Shown here: positions 6,553-13,898 of the stretch, piece by piece | How the letters are laid out: each line of letters opens with the position of its first letter | Position numbering within the stretch: the stretch's first letter is position 1 | Source of the DNA: a bacterium | GTDB taxonomy: Bacteria; JALSQH01 | Direction of reading: 5' to 3' | NCBI GenBank assembly: GCA_026985515.1 | Contig: JALSQH010000051.1 | Coordinates: 1-17,412, forward strand | DNA length: 17,412 nucleotides | Translations under genes and position numbers: made by a program | Notes under the pieces: generated by a model | The model's database searches: none | What the model saw: only the letters and a program-made list of their open reading frames with translations | What the model was told of the DNA's origin: nothing

Positions 6553-7143
6553 CTACTTTTTATCTTTAAAGTAAATGAGCCCACACTTAATCATATCCTT
6601 TACCACCTGCGTCAGGGGAAGACCCACAACATTGGAATATGATCCCCTAACCGCCTCTATCATAAAGCTACCTATTCCCTGAACTGCATAGGCTCCCGCC
6701 TTATCGAGAGGTTCTCCAGTGGAAACATACCACTCTATTATTTCATCGCTCAAATTCATAATTTTTACCTTTGATTTCACACTTCTCCTGTAGAGTTTCT
6801 TTCCACACCAGAGGGCATATCCGGTGTACACCCTGTGCCAGTTACCTGAGAGCATTTTCAAAAATTCAACTGCTTCTTTTTCATCAGATGGTTTACCAAG
6901 AATTTTCCCATTTATGAATACCACCGTATCAGCGGTAAGGACAGGCATCTCACCATCCACTTTCCTTCTGACTGCCTCAAGTTTTTCAAGGGCGGCTCGT
7001 TTCACAAACTCCCATGGAGGTTCTCCTGGAGCAGGGGATTCATCAATCTCAGGTGTAATAATTCTGAACTTAAGTCCAATCATGGATAAAAGTTCGCTTC
7101 TCCTTGGCGAAGATGATCCAAGTACAAACTCTCTATTTTTCAT
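6553..7143 (-). CDS. maf: Maf-family nucleotide pyrophosphatase
   Basis: A 196-residue Maf protein, which hydrolyses non-canonical or pyrimidine nucleoside triphosphates (house-cleaning activity, historically linked to septum control). Motifs are SSSPRR at 10-15, the PEIDES segment at 31-36, the catalytic-type D72 in LTADTVV, GKP at 83-85, and the C-terminal KAGAYAVQGIGS stretch. These resemble the YhdE (dTTP/UTP) branch more than YceF, though I cannot be sure. The ATG at 7143 has AAAGGAG seven bases upstream; the in-frame TTG at 7149 sits too close to it. It overlaps the radical SAM gene by 11 bases. It probably rides in the operon rather than acting in the modification cassette. Confidence 0.93.
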   Translation of the reverse strand: MKNREFVLGSSSPRRSELLSMIGLKFRIITPEIDESPAPGEPPWEFVKRAALEKLEAVRRKVDGEMPVLTADTVVFINGKILGKPSDEKEAVEFLKMLSGNWHRVYTGYALWCGKKLYRRSVKSKVKIMNLSDEIIEWYVSTGEPLDKAGAYAVQGIGSFMIEAVRGSYSNVVGLPLTQVVKDMIKCGLIYFKDKK

Positions 7144-8128
7144 CGGCAAGCTCCTTTAAAACAACCGCTCTGTTTCGCAGAATTTCTGTACATCCATTAA
7201 CATCACCCTTCTCAAGCCAGATGGATCCGATACAGGGACTGCAATAGGGGAGAAGGGGGCAACTGCCACATCTGTAATCTTTTATCCTTTTCCCCCTCAG
7301 GCTTTTAAAAACTTCGGATTTCTTCCATATCTCAACAATGCTTTTCTCTCTTATATTTCCCGCAAGGAGTCTGAGCTGAACGCAGGGATAAACATCTCCA
7401 TATGGTGAAATGGCCATCGTGGAAAGACCCGCATTGCATATATATTCATTTACATCCCTCTGAGGGAAAATGTAGGGCCTATCCTTAACAAGGGAGTAAA
7501 ATTCTCTCAATTGATAAAGATCAAGTCTCAACTTCAAGGGATCAATGGATAGATCATCCTTTGGAGTAATAACAACGTCATAATAGAAATTAGCATCAAG
7601 AGAATGGACAAGCTCCTTTACAGACACCACATCCCTGTAGTTGGGCTTCATGGCGATGAATTTAAGATTAACCTTTATATTGTGCTTTCTGAGAAATTTC
7701 ACTGCTCTGACAAGATGGTCAAAAGAACCTCTAACCCCTGTTATTGAATCGTGCAATTCGCTTCTGCTTCCATAGATGCTGAGTTCCACTTCAAGAATGT
7801 TTAATTGCGACAGGAAATGTGCGAAATCTTCATCAATATAATATCCAGCGGTAAAGAGTCTTATTGCAAATTCCTTCTCACTCATCATTTCAAGAAGATC
7901 TCTTATATCCCTCCTTACAAGAGGTTCACCTCCCGTAACTGTCAGAATAAGAGTACCAAGGGTATTAAGGTCATCAAGAAGGTGAGAATATTCCTCAAAA
8001 GTTAATTCATTTTCTCCTCTGTTAACCACATAGCAATGGATGCATTTCAAATTGCATCTGTAGGTAACCTCCAGGACAACATTTGCCGGGATGCCCGCTT
8101 TTATATATGTATCGTAGAGCTTTTTCAC
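7133..8128 (-). CDS. Radical SAM/SPASM peptide-modifying enzyme (PqqE-like)
   Basis: The 331-residue protein opens with the radical SAM cluster motif CNLKCIHC (C25, C29, C32), followed by GGEP at 66-69. Its C-terminal SPASM-type region has seven cysteines: C231, C249 (in SPYGDVYPC), C287, C290, C296, C299 and C313, enough for two auxiliary [4Fe-4S] clusters. Proteins of this design cross-link or otherwise modify ribosomally made peptides (PqqE, sactipeptide and other RiPP maturases) or act as anaerobic sulfatase maturases. The adjacent PqqD-like gene favours a peptide substrate. The start is GTG, overlapping the pqqD-like stop as GTGA, so the two are almost certainly co-translated. A purine-rich GAGAGGG lies a little upstream. 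The substrate is unknown. Confidence 0.92.
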   Translation of the reverse strand: MKKLYDTYIKAGIPANVVLEVTYRCNLKCIHCYVVNRGENELTFEEYSHLLDDLNTLGTLILTVTGGEPLVRRDIRDLLEMMSEKEFAIRLFTAGYYIDEDFAHFLSQLNILEVELSIYGSRSELHDSITGVRGSFDHLVRAVKFLRKHNIKVNLKFIAMKPNYRDVVSVKELVHSLDANFYYDVVITPKDDLSIDPLKLRLDLYQLREFYSLVKDRPYIFPQRDVNEYICNAGLSTMAISPYGDVYPCVQLRLLAGNIREKSIVEIWKKSEVFKSLRGKRIKDYRCGSCPLLPYCSPCIGSIWLEKGDVNGCTEILRNRAVVLKELADEK

Positions 8129-8397
8129 TTAACCCTCTCTATTAGACCCGCTTCCAGCAACTGTGTTAAAAATTCCTCAACATCTCCCTCTGCATCTTCT
8201 TCTGAAACCTCGTATTGCTCCACCAACATTCTGATAATTTCAGCAACACTCCTTCTGCCATCTATCAGATCCCAGATCTCACCCCCCACCTCATTAAGGG
8301 TCAAAACCTCCCCTTCCCTTGTATCTACAAGGATATACTCATCAAGGATCTTCCTGTGAACCACCCCCTTTTTTCTTCTGTAGATCTCTTCCCTCAC
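8125..8397 (-). CDS. PqqD-like RiPP recognition element protein
   Basis: A stand-alone 90-residue PqqD-family protein. The hallmark winged-helix pattern is clear: VVHRKI near 12-17, a strand pair around REGEVLTLNEVGGEIWDLIDG (28-47), SVAEIIRMLVEQY, and a closing FLTQLLEAGLI helix. PqqD proteins bind the leader of a precursor peptide and present it to the radical SAM enzyme; related ones occur with HprK-like kinases in systems named HPr-rel-A. The start is GTG with a strong AAAGGAGGT seven bases upstream, overlapping the kinase stop as GTGA. The small size and high-quality SD suggest it is made in excess over its neighbours. Confidence 0.92.
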   Translation of the reverse strand: MREEIYRRKKGVVHRKILDEYILVDTREGEVLTLNEVGGEIWDLIDGRRSVAEIIRMLVEQYEVSEEDAEGDVEEFLTQLLEAGLIERVK

Positions 8398-9215
8398 AAT
8401 AAAACCTCCTTTACACTCCCATCTTTTCTGAACCTGAGTATATAAAATTCCACCCTTTCCAGCAAAGAGTTTATCCTTTCAACAAGTAAATCAACCATTT
8501 CATCATCGCTGTTTACAAAAGGAGAATTGGCAAAAAGTTTGGCAACTGCATATCCACGCTCCACAGGAACAATTTCATTTTTATCAGATTTTATTAGAAA
8601 AAAAACTCTCACGAGTCTGGTACCTGTTTGCCTCCCCACCCATATCGTCTCCTCGCCCCTGAAAGGCGTTGATAAGATCTGAGTATCCTCTTTGGAAAGA
8701 TCAACGGCCACCAGATCATCACTGTAAATCTCTCCATAATTTCTCAGTAGCCGTGATATGGTTGACTTTCCAGCACCCGACTGCCCCACAAATAGAAATC
8801 CCTTCCCTCCCAGTTCCATTCCTGCGGAATGGAGTAATAAAGCCTCATTGAGAAGAAGATAGTAAGAAAAATAGACTCTGAAAAAATTTTCCATCAGGCT
8901 AACAGACAGGTTTGCCGCGACTTTTACCTCTCCACTAAAGGTGGTTAGATCAAAATCCCCCTTTAATCCCGTGGAAGCAACAGTGACCAGAGAACCATCT
9001 CTTTCAATATCAAGTGGCAAAAGTCCCCTTACAGTTTTAAAACTCAAGTCCCCACTCTTCTCAATAAAAATTTCACCGGCGGCCTGTCCCTCCTTCAACT
9101 CTGAAATAAAACTCCTGTATGTTCTCACAAAAAGATCAATAGTTTCTTCATCTGAAAAAACATTAACCCCGAATCTGCCAAAGCCAAAGGTAATGGCTCT
9201 ACTTTTCCGAGACAA
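8394..9215 (-). CDS. HprK-like P-loop kinase
   Basis: About 273 residues with an HPr kinase/phosphorylase-like C-terminal domain. The family marks are LLLHSAG (H129), a Walker A GQSGAGKST at 144-152, and a YSDDL motif with D166/D167. The first ~105 residues are not recognisable. It is not a classical HprK: the N-terminal HprK domain and typical signature are absent, and the protein groups by context with tailoring kinases. In paeninodin-type lasso peptide clusters an HprK-like kinase phosphorylates a serine of the peptide next to a nucleotidyltransferase; HprK-related kinases with PqqD partners also occur near exosortase genes. The start was placed at TTG 9215, eight bases after GGAGG; a TTG at 9221 is only two bases from it. 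The gene overlaps the nucleotidyltransferase by 17 bases. The substrate is unknown. Confidence 0.85.
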   Translation of the reverse strand: MSRKSRAITFGFGRFGVNVFSDEETIDLFVRTYRSFISELKEGQAAGEIFIEKSGDLSFKTVRGLLPLDIERDGSLVTVASTGLKGDFDLTTFSGEVKVAANLSVSLMENFFRVYFSYYLLLNEALLLHSAGMELGGKGFLFVGQSGAGKSTISRLLRNYGEIYSDDLVAVDLSKEDTQILSTPFRGEETIWVGRQTGTRLVRVFFLIKSDKNEIVPVERGYAVAKLFANSPFVNSDDEMVDLLVERINSLLERVEFYILRFRKDGSVKEVLL

Positions 9216-10185
9216 GATCAATCCCTCCCAGAACCAGGTAGGCTCCCGTGAACAATATCTTGTTCAGCGGCTTTCCTATGGTACTCAGAGCGTAACTGTA
9301 CCTCTGGAAACCTGAAAACTTCTCCTCCCTGAAAAACTCAATATCAAAAATCCTGCCGGTGATCTTTGTTTTCACATTAACACCAAGCAGTTCATTCATG
9401 AGATAAACAACTGTGGAAAATCCTCTTTCTACCCCTGCCTTTTTCACCTGAAATTCAATGTAATCCATATCCAGATTGCTCATATAAAGGTAGTAGAGAT
9501 CCATCAATCCCGAAAGAGGAAGTGTAAAGGCATCTTTAATGAGATGAATAACTGTTATAACAAATTGATCTTCGGGAGATGGATAAAAAAAGAACTCATT
9601 AACTCTGTGTGCCCTCTTCCATATTTCACTCTCATCAAGGGTGTATCTGAATCTCTGGAACAACCTGTAGTGGATATCGATCAACTTCCACTTATCAGGT
9701 CCTCTGAATGTAATCTCAGCCCCGATTCTCTCAAGAAAGTTCCTTCCAGTTTTTACGATTACAAATCCATTTTCAAGCATTTTATTACTCAATCTTACCC
9801 TGTCCTCCCCTTTTATCAGGAAGTCATAATCTCCCATTAACCTCAGAAGAGGATCGGGATAAAACCTTCTTGTGTAAATTCCTTTAAATGCCATCACAGG
9901 AACCTGAATCTGGTTGAAAAAATTGTTCAGATATGTGACCTGCTCCCCTGTAAAGAGATAATCTGCCCCAGCCATCACAAAATCCCTGTACAGCCCCCTT
10001 TTGACCCTTTCATCCAGGGAATTAAGAAGCTGTGATCTCTTCAGATAGTAAAAAAGAAGTGGTGATAAATTGGCTCTGGAGGCAAAAGATGCCTGCTCAA
10101 GTGTGACTTCACTTTCAAGTCTCCCATATTCAATAAGAGAAGCAAGGTTTCTGAAAAAAGAATTTGAAACTGGAGGGATTCTCAT
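9199..10185 (-). CDS. NTP_transf_5-type nucleotidyltransferase family protein
   Basis: The 328-residue protein has the core of this nucleotidyltransferase family: FKGI at 100-103, then YPDPLLRLMGDYDFLIK at 109-125 with the two acidic residues D119 and D121, and later IDIHYRL at 169-175. The family sits in the Pol-beta-like superfamily and often accompanies HprK-like kinases, lasso peptide genes and polysaccharide/exosortase loci; its chemistry is poorly known. The ATG overlaps the MBL gene's stop as ATGA and has AAAGGTGA upstream. The C-terminal ~150 residues look helical. By order it is the first gene of the cassette, so it may act with the kinase on one substrate (inference). Confidence 0.85.
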   Translation of the reverse strand: MRIPPVSNSFFRNLASLIEYGRLESEVTLEQASFASRANLSPLLFYYLKRSQLLNSLDERVKRGLYRDFVMAGADYLFTGEQVTYLNNFFNQIQVPVMAFKGIYTRRFYPDPLLRLMGDYDFLIKGEDRVRLSNKMLENGFVIVKTGRNFLERIGAEITFRGPDKWKLIDIHYRLFQRFRYTLDESEIWKRAHRVNEFFFYPSPEDQFVITVIHLIKDAFTLPLSGLMDLYYLYMSNLDMDYIEFQVKKAGVERGFSTVVYLMNELLGVNVKTKITGRIFDIEFFREEKFSGFQRYSYALSTIGKPLNKILFTGAYLVLGGIDLVSEK

Positions 10186-11006
10186 TTTTCACCTTTCAGC
10201 AGTTCATACGTTGTCTTCGAAGTTTGAAAAACCCTTCCCTCTTTCTTCAACTTATCAAGATGAGCCAGGACAGTTAGTCGGGCAAAGGGTACTACATGCT
10301 CAGGAAGATCCTCCTTATCGTAAACATAATCTGTTATTTCTTCAATGCTCTTTTTACCACTCTCAATGGCTTTAATAATCTGTTTCTCCCTCTCAAGCCT
10401 GTGGGCAATATATTCATCTATTTTTTCACCGGGGTTTGCAATCTCTTCTCCATGACCGGAGTATATTACCCTTATATCAAGTCCCCTGAGCATCTTTAAG
10501 GTCTCCATGTAAACCTTCATATCTCCCTCAGGGGGTCCCACCCATGGGGTACCCTTACTTAGAATGGTGTCACCTGAAAAGAGGATCTTCTCTTCCTCAA
10601 CATAAGGGGAAATATGTCCCCTCGTATGTCCCGGAGTGTGGCACAACCTGACTGTAAATCCTCTGAAAAAGAGCCTCAACCCCTCTTTTACCCTGAAAAC
10701 AGCATCTTCAATTTCAAATTTAAAACTGGGAGGAACCTTTTCATCTCTGTGAAGAAAAATTTTAACACCAAGTTCTCTTAAAAATGGAATTCCACCCGCG
10801 TGATCTTCATGGAGATGGGTGATAAAAGCAGCCTTTAAATTCCACTTTCGTGCAATGGCTTCTATCAACTTCTTCGTCTCTTCTGAGTAAAAACCACTAT
10901 CTATGAGTACAGCTTCCCCCTCGCTCTCAATCAGGTAAAAATTGGCTTCAGGTTCTAAAGAGAGATCCCCACCTGAAACGACAAATCTTTCAACCTTAAT
11001 TGCCAT
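10182..11006 (-). CDS. MBL-fold metallohydrolase with C-terminal winged helix (LACTB2-like)
   Basis: A 274-residue metallo-beta-lactamase-fold hydrolase. The metal set is complete: THLHEDH (H64, H66, D68, H69), TPGHT (H127), SGDT (D146) and SGHG (H185). From about 195 the protein continues into a winged-helix-like tail containing FARLTVLAHLDKLKKEGRV, the layout of LACTB2-type proteins. LACTB2 relatives act as RNA endonucleases or on small thioesters and polyketide intermediates; which applies here is open. No signal peptide is seen. It overlaps the preceding gene by 11 bases and the nucleotidyltransferase by 4. Its place directly before the cassette makes a joint role possible, but it could equally be an independent housekeeping gene. 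Confidence 0.92.
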   Translation of the reverse strand: MAIKVERFVVSGGDLSLEPEANFYLIESEGEAVLIDSGFYSEETKKLIEAIARKWNLKAAFITHLHEDHAGGIPFLRELGVKIFLHRDEKVPPSFKFEIEDAVFRVKEGLRLFFRGFTVRLCHTPGHTRGHISPYVEEEKILFSGDTILSKGTPWVGPPEGDMKVYMETLKMLRGLDIRVIYSGHGEEIANPGEKIDEYIAHRLEREKQIIKAIESGKKSIEEITDYVYDKEDLPEHVVPFARLTVLAHLDKLKKEGRVFQTSKTTYELLKGEK

Positions 11007-11664
11007 CCTTTTTCTTGCTTTTCCTCTTCTTCTCCAGTTCCTTCCTCTCTATGAAAGGCAGCAGATAAGACCAGACAAGTTTAACTTCTTCCCTGTTCCG
11101 GAGGATTATGTAAACCTTTTCAAAAACGAAGTTATCAAGGGCTCTCAGAACTGCTCTGAGGGAATCCTCAATTGGTATAAAATTGTAAAAGGCACCCAGC
11201 AACCTCAACCTTATCTTTTTAACATCGTTTTTCTTCATAATTGAAAACGCCTTCATATAGGCACTCACCAATTTTCTGTAGGAGTAAAAATTACCTTCAG
11301 GCTCATTTATCATATCAAAAACCACTATCCTGACCTTTAAAGGATCAAATATTGTGGGTGGGGTGTCTCGATCCCCCCTTCTGCCTTCAATGTACGCATC
11401 ACCAAGCTCATATGCCCTTACAGAAAAAACATCTCCGGCAAAATCTTCAAAATCCTCATCATCAAAAATATCTTCCTTCAAGATGTAACTGTTCTCCTCC
11501 GGTGTCATTATTCCAAGGGAATCCTGTTCAAGAATTATTCCATCAGCCTTGATACTCTGCTCATCCTCATATGAAAGGGCAAGTAGATTATCACCAAAAA
11601 CCACCTCCACATTCTTATCAAAGTATCTTTGACGATACTTTTCAAAGTCAACAATTTTACCCAT
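10996..11664 (-). CDS. Uncharacterised protein, possibly macro-domain-like
   Basis: I do not recognise this 222-residue protein outright. The order of elements from about 85 on resembles a macro domain: ELGDAYIEGR (like the loop before the second ligand strand), KVRIVVFDM (a 'VIHAV'-like strand), a long helix with YRKLVSAYMKAFSIMKK, the strand IRLRLLGAF, PIEDSLRAVLRALDNF, and a last strand KVYIIL. The usual ADP-ribose-binding glycine loop is not seen, so binding may be altered or lost. Residues 52-80 are very acidic, and the tail from 207 is very basic (KKRKSKKK). The ATG at 11664 has GGGGAG about seven bases upstream. It lies 17 bases after the lipoprotein gene and overlaps the MBL gene, so it is in the same operon. 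Confidence 0.6.
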   Translation of the reverse strand: MGKIVDFEKYRQRYFDKNVEVVFGDNLLALSYEDEQSIKADGIILEQDSLGIMTPEENSYILKEDIFDDEDFEDFAGDVFSVRAYELGDAYIEGRRGDRDTPPTIFDPLKVRIVVFDMINEPEGNFYSYRKLVSAYMKAFSIMKKNDVKKIRLRLLGAFYNFIPIEDSLRAVLRALDNFVFEKVYIILRNREEVKLVWSYLLPFIERKELEKKRKSKKKDGN

Positions 11665-11681
11665 TTTCACACTCCCCGAAA

Positions 11682-12584: not shown

Positions 12585-13898
12585 ATGGACAAAAAAGATA
12601 GAATAGTGGTTATCCTGTTTTATCTCCTTCTTGCGGTAAATCTTATCCTCTTTGGAGGTCCCCATCATGCAACAAGAGTGATTTCTCTAATTATCTCCCT
12701 TTTCATCTTTGGATTTATACGATTCAGGAAACAGGTCAAAGGAGGGTGGCTCTGGACAGGTCTTATTATCATATCTATTTTTCAACTGATCCCCCTCCCG
12801 GAACAAATTTTGAAAATTATATCTCCTGCTACCTACACTCTCAGAATCCTGCCCCTCCATCAGACTGGATTATCCCTTGAAACATTATGGAGGCCCATCT
12901 CTGCTGCACCTGTTGAAACCATGTTTTTTCTATCAACAATCTTCACAGCCAGTATCATATACATGGTTTCCTATCTATTTATACCTGGAAGCATCTCATC
13001 TCTTCAGCGATTCTTTAAGTTCCTGTTTGCACAGTCAATTTTCATCATTCTGGCAGAAATAATTAACAAGTTCTCCGGTACACACAGGATTTACGGCTTT
13101 ACCCTTGAGAGGAAATCACCCTTTGGTGAGTTTATAAATCCCAATTTCGCCGCCACCGTAATGGCAATGTCTCTGCTCGTATTTCTCAACTTTTCTCTCA
13201 ACAGAAGCAAAAAGGAAAATAAAATTACAGGCATACTCCTTTCAGGAATAATTTATGCGGGAATAATACTCACCCTATCCAGAAGCGTGATCATCTACAC
13301 ATCCCTGCTGGTTATTTTTCTGATAATTTCAAACATACAGCCAGAGGGTAACAGAAGGGAAAAAATTATCATCTCATTACTTATTCTTCTTGTCATCCTT
13401 TACGACATCTTTAACCTTGATTTAACTCCTCTTATTAAAAAATTTGATGTTCTGTCTCTCTCACTCAGAGCAAGAAAGGAATTGATCAACTCCACTGCAA
13501 AAATTTTTCTTCACTCACCGGTCACTGGAATAGGCTTTGGAGGAATGTATGAAGCCTTCCACTTCTTCACAATTCCCATGAGGCTCTCAATCCCATACGA
13601 TGATTTTGATCTTTTGCAGATACTTGCAGAGGGAGGGATAATCTCCTTTATTCTTGTAACTGGATTCATCTGGTGGAACTACAAAATTGAAAGGGAAAAG
13701 AGGAGTAAACTCCCTGAAATTTATCAACATTATATTATAGGTCTTGACCTCGCACTGATTCTGTTTCTACTCCACTCCTTCTTTGCCTATGTTTTCTTCT
13801 TTCCATACACTCACTTCATGATGGCATCAATTCTGGGAGTGAGAAATGGAATACTTTTCAGAAAATTCAGAAGAAAAAATTCATGGAAACGAATATGA
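12585..13898 (+). CDS. O-antigen ligase/polymerase family membrane protein (Wzy_C type)
   Basis: The only plus-strand gene: 437 residues, very hydrophobic, with about ten to twelve membrane helices. Family features are the loop GEFINPNFAATVMAM at 181-195 (the 'NPN' region before a helix), LTLSRS at 229-234, a soluble stretch with HSPVTGIGFGGMYEAF at 310-325, DLLQILAEGG at 342-351 and HSFFAYVFFFP at 397-407. Such proteins join O-antigen or other glycans to lipid A-core, polymerise polysaccharide repeat units, or glycosylate pilin; which it does cannot be told. The ATG at 12585 has only a poorly spaced GGGAAG. A TATAAA at 12572-12577 lies seven bases before the ATG, without a good -35. No other polysaccharide gene is nearby. 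Its end overlaps the convergent TPR gene by 18 bases. Confidence 0.88.
   Translation: MDKKDRIVVILFYLLLAVNLILFGGPHHATRVISLIISLFIFGFIRFRKQVKGGWLWTGLIIISIFQLIPLPEQILKIISPATYTLRILPLHQTGLSLETLWRPISAAPVETMFFLSTIFTASIIYMVSYLFIPGSISSLQRFFKFLFAQSIFIILAEIINKFSGTHRIYGFTLERKSPFGEFINPNFAATVMAMSLLVFLNFSLNRSKKENKITGILLSGIIYAGIILTLSRSVIIYTSLLVIFLIISNIQPEGNRREKIIISLLILLVILYDIFNLDLTPLIKKFDVLSLSLRARKELINSTAKIFLHSPVTGIGFGGMYEAFHFFTIPMRLSIPYDDFDLLQILAEGGIISFILVTGFIWWNYKIEREKRSKLPEIYQHYIIGLDLALILFLLHSFFAYVFFFPYTHFMMASILGVRNGILFRKFRRKNSWKRI

Follow-up and report, generated by a model that had tools for sequence, protein, structure and literature searches.

What could four overlapping genes for peptide-tailoring enzymes act upon when no peptide gene is recognised beside them? 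We addressed this question for a bacterial contig (JALSQH010000051.1, assembly GCA_026985515.1), whose 17,412 nucleotides are called the window below. It encodes a nucleotidyltransferase, an HprK-like kinase, a PqqD-fold protein and a radical S-adenosylmethionine (SAM)/SPASM enzyme, which an earlier note had described as an orphan set. The set is an orphan within the window only. We consider it probable that this cassette supplies the enzymes of a split-locus pathway for a ribosomally synthesized and post-translationally modified peptide (RiPP), and that its substrate is likely a small peptide encoded on another contig (C117) of the same genome.

A conserved cassette and an unlinked precursor-like gene

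All four open reading frames (ORFs) are confirmed on the minus strand from 10185 to 7133, each overlapping the next, and a maf gene follows. Their coordinates, their Pfam matches and residues that are invariant in a related genome bear out the earlier statement that the genes overlap and carry intact motifs.

9199..10185, minus strand: nucleotidyltransferase (PF14907, NTP_transf_5, E 2.8e-34; FKGI...DYD motif)
8394..9221, minus strand: HprK-like P-loop kinase (GQSGAGKST, H131, D168/D169, STPFRGEET)
8125..8397, minus strand: discrete PqqD-fold RiPP recognition element (RRE; PF05402, E 5e-24)
7133..8128, minus strand: radical SAM/SPASM enzyme (PF04055, E 1e-19; PF13186, E 1e-11; CNLKCIHC)

We surveyed 386 genomes including the host (G000), after an earlier round of 59, and read the neighbourhoods of about 30 loci. 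The host lineage is isolated: only one other surveyed genome, an unclassified bacterial metagenome-assembled genome (JALTID010000171, hereafter G001), shares its family. G001 carries the four genes in identical order, with identities of 51, 41, 44 and 63% for nucleotidyltransferase, kinase, PqqD and radical SAM enzyme, followed by maf at 71%. Because the same genes, order and maf recur there, the four-gene set is not a product of chance. The earlier note had made its reading depend on the genes staying together in relatives, and they do so in G001. All four lie within about 10 kb in at least 14 of the 386 genomes, from 12 families, G000 and G001 included. Gene order varies between these loci, the order of the window recurring in G001 and G104. 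Taken singly, PF14907 occurs in 136 of the 386 genomes, PqqD in 177 and an HprK-like kinase, counting genuine HprK, in 130; since a custom PqqD profile became contaminated by radical SAM proteins after iteration, PqqD presence was checked against PF05402 hits instead. Many loci add a small signal peptidase I or S24-type protein, and some have ABC transporter genes nearby. A signal-peptidase-like domain is also found fused to the N-terminus of PF14907 (L101:216-1862, L109:1816-3243) or of the kinase (L095:7831-9111), fusions that suggest that the three act together.

Ten of the 14 four-gene loci carry a linked peptide gene. The peptides have 42-83 residues, a K-rich start and a KKxYxKPxI leader with the pattern Y-x-x-P-x-[I/V], and nearly always a Cys-containing tail. 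The cassettes of G000, G001, G104 and G320 have no linked peptide, and in all four genomes a K-x-Y-x-x-P peptide is encoded elsewhere; the G104 cassette contig ends inside the radical SAM gene, and a linked peptide may lie beyond this end. We built a profile from 16 peptides of 15 genomes, picked by N-terminal motif and location and leaving out the host family. In the host genome it gave a single match, MKMKKKRYIKPKIISREKIEARANVCPSTSGGKSSGSTPPCSVLTS (E 2.5e-7), encoded at G000:C117:1754-1894 on the plus strand (L117). The gene has a strong ribosome-binding site, with GGAAGGAGG immediately 5' of it, and encodes 46 residues, or 44 from the second ATG. The peptide has the leader KKRYIKPKI, which contains the YxxPxI motif, a core with two Cys, and Ser as its last residue. 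The earlier claim that a precursor is absent thus holds for the window, where a precursor motif search returned noise ORFs only, and has to be qualified for the genome by this candidate. As the peptide gene is unlinked, the pairing with its enzymes rests on homology and not on linkage. The host peptide has no NCBIfam match; the related peptides match no family above its cut-off, with one weak hit to the StsA sactipeptide model (E 0.008). G043 holds near-identical peptides at scattered sites (KKAYxKPTIKQVKLVPEEAVLGVCKSD...CIIPQCFNPGS; L148-L153), and a similar one occurs in G320 (L163).

Of the 16 profile peptides, 13 have Ser and one has Thr as the last residue, for which the chance is about 2e-12 at an assumed background of 8%. 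This is not a product of selection, because the peptides were chosen by N-terminal motif and location only. Among further genomes found with the profile, 11 of 14 readable peptides also end in Ser or Thr. The peptide and the enzymes occur together across genomes as well. With the 15 profile-source genomes left out and the peptide counted at E 1e-4 or better, 17 of 371 genomes have it; 16 of these 17 have the kinase, against 115 of 371 overall (p 4e-8), 16 have PqqD (p 1e-5), 15 the nucleotidyltransferase (p 2e-6) and 14 all three, against 74 of 371 (p 2e-8), p values that are indicative because the genomes are related by descent.

The four enzymes and their key residues

In the nucleotidyltransferase the FKG and DYD motifs (D119, D121) are intact and invariant in G001. 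Judged by its sequence, this PF14907 protein is an enzyme of the same kind as LppN and the nucleotidyltransferase from pseudomycoidin/paeninodin-type clusters; a sequence search of structures returned no solved relative. The kinase P-loop GQSGAGKST reads GQSGSGKTT in G001, and H131 and D168/D169 are conserved. Its matches to family models all score below the curated cut-offs (HprK_rel_B, E 7e-6; ScmC, E 1e-5; Hpr_kinase_C, E 0.0014). A TP[F/W]xG-type motif is common to most of the sampled kinases linked to peptides or radical SAM genes, and is absent from the host's own HprK and from the sampled lasso-cluster kinase. At 20.8 against 240 bits, the cassette kinase falls far short of the HprK equivalog, and it is not the HPr kinase/phosphorylase because a separate HprK-like gene adjoins HPr-like and PTS EI-like genes at G000:C114 (L033; read by eye). 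In a kinase tree the window protein pairs with that of G001, support being mostly weak and deeper placement not fixed. A kinase-only pattern search of named genomes, with patterns that were too specific, retrieved no relative.

The closest solved structures to the window PqqD are 9x90, 5v1u and 9x8z, RREs from lasso and linear polyphosphorylated peptide (LPP) pathways. The motif bound by a discrete PqqD-like RRE in these two kinds of pathway is [Y/W]xxPx[L/V/I]. In the structure of LppB with its leader, D70 holds the leader Tyr, N33 the Pro kink, and F74 packs on the Pro (PMC13381572). An ungapped alignment with 9x8z chain B places equivalents of LppB N33, Y60, E61, D70, F74 and L83 in the window protein, and those of N33, D70 and F74 are also kept in G001. 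Because the window PqqD keeps this N, D and F, it fits a Tyr-type leader, and we predict from the alignment that it binds a YxxPxI leader. The radical SAM enzyme has its CNLKCIHC cysteines (C25, C29, C32) and seven SPASM cysteines (C231, C249, C287, C290, C296, C299, C313), all ten invariant in G001; its closest solved relatives are 5v1q (SuiB), SkfB and PqqE.

Family models could suggest another origin for these two proteins. The best NCBIfam model for PqqD is lasso_PqqD_Bac (E 2e-16), below its cut-off. The protein passes the PQQ-PqqD cut-off (TIGR03859, 49.2 vs 46 bits), and an automatic pipeline would therefore probably assign it, wrongly, to PQQ biosynthesis. AhbD, mycofactocin and PqqE are among the best-scoring models of the radical SAM enzyme. 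The locus could accordingly be read as what is left of a radical SAM cofactor pathway, PQQ-like or other, in which the kinase and nucleotidyltransferase are fortuitous neighbours. We give this reading very little credence: PqqE scores 117 against 381 bits, no PqqC match was found in the host or G001 (control genomes being equally silent), and the kinase and nucleotidyltransferase are conserved in place and statistically tied to the peptide.

Proposed pathway and alternative targets

We infer the following steps, their order and their chemistry, with the C117 peptide as substrate. The PqqD-fold RRE would hold the peptide through its KKRYIKPKI leader, and the radical SAM/SPASM enzyme would modify the Cys-containing core, a Cys thioether being plausible given its two Cys. 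The HprK-like kinase would then phosphorylate the C-terminal Ser, and the PF14907 enzyme would cap the phosphate with a sugar- or nucleotide-type group. An archaeal-type signal peptidase relative, encoded at G000:C118:1358-1663, is a candidate for removal of the leader. By analogy the kinase most likely acts on the terminal Ser of the host peptide, because the HprK-like kinases of paeninodin clusters phosphorylate a C-terminal Ser and are largely indifferent to the rest of the peptide; in pseudomycoidin the nucleotidyltransferase attaches a hexose to the Ser phosphate (PMC8498205). The LPP leader peptidase is an archaeal-type signal peptidase (PMC13381572). Its relatives match TIGR02228 below the cut-off in the host (E 3e-10) and above it in G001 (E 2e-15); in each genome the gene comes immediately after that of a C25-family peptidase (C118 and C113, respectively). 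The earlier note had called the leader protease absent, which is correct for the window and has to be qualified for the genome by this candidate. The locus is best read as that note suggested, with radical chemistry and phosphorylation both modifying a peptide.

Several observations weigh against this pathway. The host peptide is encoded on a different contig from the cassette, and in G001 the single profile match, MKKDERKGKKPYIPPKVDSRDIFEVNALG... (44% identical to the host peptide), is weak (E 0.014) and truncated where its contig stops. The last residue of some related peptides is D, P, G or V. LppK phosphorylates core Ser3, sometimes several times (PMC13381572), and therefore the kinase site cannot be read from the family alone. 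Deleting LppN made no visible difference in the test host (PMC13381572), which makes the role of the nucleotidyltransferase the weakest step. No ABC transporter was recognised among the window ORFs, an exporter not having been sought genome-wide. AlphaFold2 models of the kinase and the nucleotidyltransferase, from two-row alignments, were unusable (pLDDT 33 and 42).

The missing linkage would also be expected if the enzymes acted on some other target, such as the product of an unrecognised short ORF or a large secreted protein, and if the C117 peptide were a relic or part of a separate system. Related kinase-PqqD pairs do occur in polysaccharide loci where no peptide is obvious (G054). We nevertheless regard this explanation as unlikely, since the genome holds exactly one profile match, whose translation signals are good and whose RRE-binding motif is intact, since no second PqqD-family match was found in the host genome, and since the co-occurrence across genomes is strong.

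Could the peptides have a connection to proteins of the cell surface? Twelve bases after the host peptide gene lies the gene of a secreted lamin-tail-domain protein with a C-terminal tail of Cys, transmembrane segment and basic residues, followed by that of another secreted protein, 3'-open at the end of C117. Contig C118 (L175) starts inside the 5'-open gene of a C25 (PorU-like) peptidase, whose tail is similar to that of the lamin-tail protein, and continues with the signal peptidase relative and glnB-like and glnA-like genes; C117 and C118 are possibly one broken locus. In G015 the genes of a C25 peptidase, the peptide and a radical SAM enzyme follow one another in this order. The G043 peptides mostly adjoin a large secreted protein, some with beta-propeller repeats, and these neighbours share C-terminal tails. 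The profile matches of G188 (L154-L155) stand in similar settings, and those of G104 are near beta-propeller proteins, one of them with a sorting tail. These observations, made without a control count of short ORFs beside such proteins, raise a possible link between the peptides and surface proteins, to which we give a low probability. Type IX secretion, at which the PorU-like C25 peptidase hints, is not claimed for the host, because SprA was not found in G000 or G001; it was found in G089, G229 and G104.

The other genes of the window were also considered. The run of overlapping genes is longer than first described, with two further genes upstream of the cassette and maf downstream.

6553..7149, minus strand: Maf family nucleotide pyrophosphatase (PF02545, E 2.5e-57), overlapping the end of the radical SAM gene
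10182..11006, minus strand: MBL-fold hydrolase with a BLACT_WH C-terminus (PF00753, E 8e-30; PF17778, E 9e-12), sharing 4 bp with the start of the nucleotidyltransferase gene
10996-11670, minus strand: 224-aa protein without Pfam or NCBIfam match, overlapping the MBL-fold gene
12585-13898, strand opposite to the cassette: O-antigen ligase-like gene, outside the overlapping run

The maf gene is a conserved neighbour of the cassette. The MBL-fold gene was not seen beside the G001 cassette, where the contig ends shortly after; we claim no pathway role for either gene. The ligase-like gene calls to mind polysaccharide/exosortase surface assembly of the HPr-rel-A type, in which the target of kinase and nucleotidyltransferase would be a glycan or lipid carrier. 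Some polysaccharide loci do contain PqqD and an HprK-like kinase (L031, L112), and HPr-rel-A systems likewise combine an HprK-like kinase with a PqqD-like protein, the radical SAM enzyme being present only on the cassette side. A discrete RRE with a SPASM enzyme, in contrast, points to a peptide substrate. Moreover, the HprK_rel_A and PqqD_rel_X models (TIGR04352 and TIGR04353) give 20.8 against 200 and 31.7 against 35 bits, and the ligase-like gene lies on the other strand and apart from the run, so that assembly of this kind appears very unlikely.

Comparison with known peptide-modification systems

The earlier view that the parts resemble tailoring enzymes of RiPP and paeninodin-type clusters is supported, and here they form a conserved unit. 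SynChlorMet loci bring together a kinase-like ScmC, a PqqD-like ScmD and the radical SAM/SPASM proteins ScmE/F; the cassette has one radical SAM enzyme and, in addition, a nucleotidyltransferase. An identity with SynChlorMet can be rejected from the scores (ScmC 24.8 vs 125, ScmD 43.6 vs 100, ScmE 113 vs 400 bits), as can one with GeoRSP, whose cut-offs were not reached.

Paeninodin and pseudomycoidin lasso clusters likewise combine an HprK-like kinase, a nucleotidyltransferase, a PqqD-type B1 protein and a precursor with a C-terminal Ser. They differ by a WxxP instead of a YxxP leader, and by a cyclase and B2 protease in place of the radical SAM enzyme. The earlier note saw no lasso cyclase in the window, and a search of the whole genome found none either. 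Its matches were limited to an ordinary AsnB of 612 aa, which has the amidotransferase Cys (MCGI) and lies in a polysaccharide-type locus (G000:C24), and to a GMP synthase-like protein. For a B2 protease, the genome-wide search gave a single PF13471 match, which is partial (about 47 profile positions) and lies within a protein of 479 aa. With neither macrolactam cyclase nor B2 protease found in the host genome, a lasso peptide was rejected. A paeninodin-like cluster, read by eye, is present in G327 (L106), where a peptide with a WxxP leader and Ser as last residue is accompanied by kinase, PqqD and nucleotidyltransferase and by an Asn-synthetase-like protein of 643 aa.

The LPP system of Paenibacillus alginolyticus (lppA-K-B-S-D-N, PMC13381572) shares with the proposed pathway a discrete RRE, an HprK-like kinase and an NTP transferase, a YxxPx[V/I] leader, and the lack of a macrolactam cyclase. 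The archaeal-type signal peptidase of LPP has a relative in the host, encoded at another locus. Comparing the LPP consensus YxxPxVLxHQxIxFETxxS with the host sequence YIKPKIISREKIEARANVC, YxxPx[I/V] is shared and the remainder is similar without matching. The host system adds a radical SAM/SPASM enzyme and core Cys, and its conserved candidate site is the terminal Ser instead of core Ser3. An MsbA-like exporter belongs to the LPP cluster and none was recognised in the host locus, and precursor and peptidase genes are linked in LPP and unlinked in the host. LPPs are reported to be restricted to Bacillota, whereas the host belongs to an isolated lineage.

Kinase, nucleotidyltransferase and discrete RRE are thus already known together from paeninodin lassos and, since 2026, from LPP. 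The combination of a radical SAM enzyme with a discrete, lasso-like RRE had drawn comment in 2020, in a paper whose main text names no kinase (PMC7470986). In the open-access literature we found no description of all four together with a YxxP/terminal-Ser peptide. Our analysis points to a widespread RiPP-like class, undescribed in the literature searched, whose enzymes would apply radical SAM chemistry to the same peptide that undergoes tail phosphorylation/nucleotidyl transfer. It supplies a concrete candidate substrate for a seemingly orphaned set of enzymes, and it offers a defined peptide, with its site predicted, on which the job of the 'uncharacterised nucleotidyltransferase' PF14907 can be tested. 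It also indicates that precursor genes are worth seeking genome-wide and not merely beside their enzymes. The best reading, based on the sequence comparisons above, is that the pathway is a radical-SAM variant of the paeninodin-lasso/LPP phosphopeptide systems and not itself a lasso pathway.

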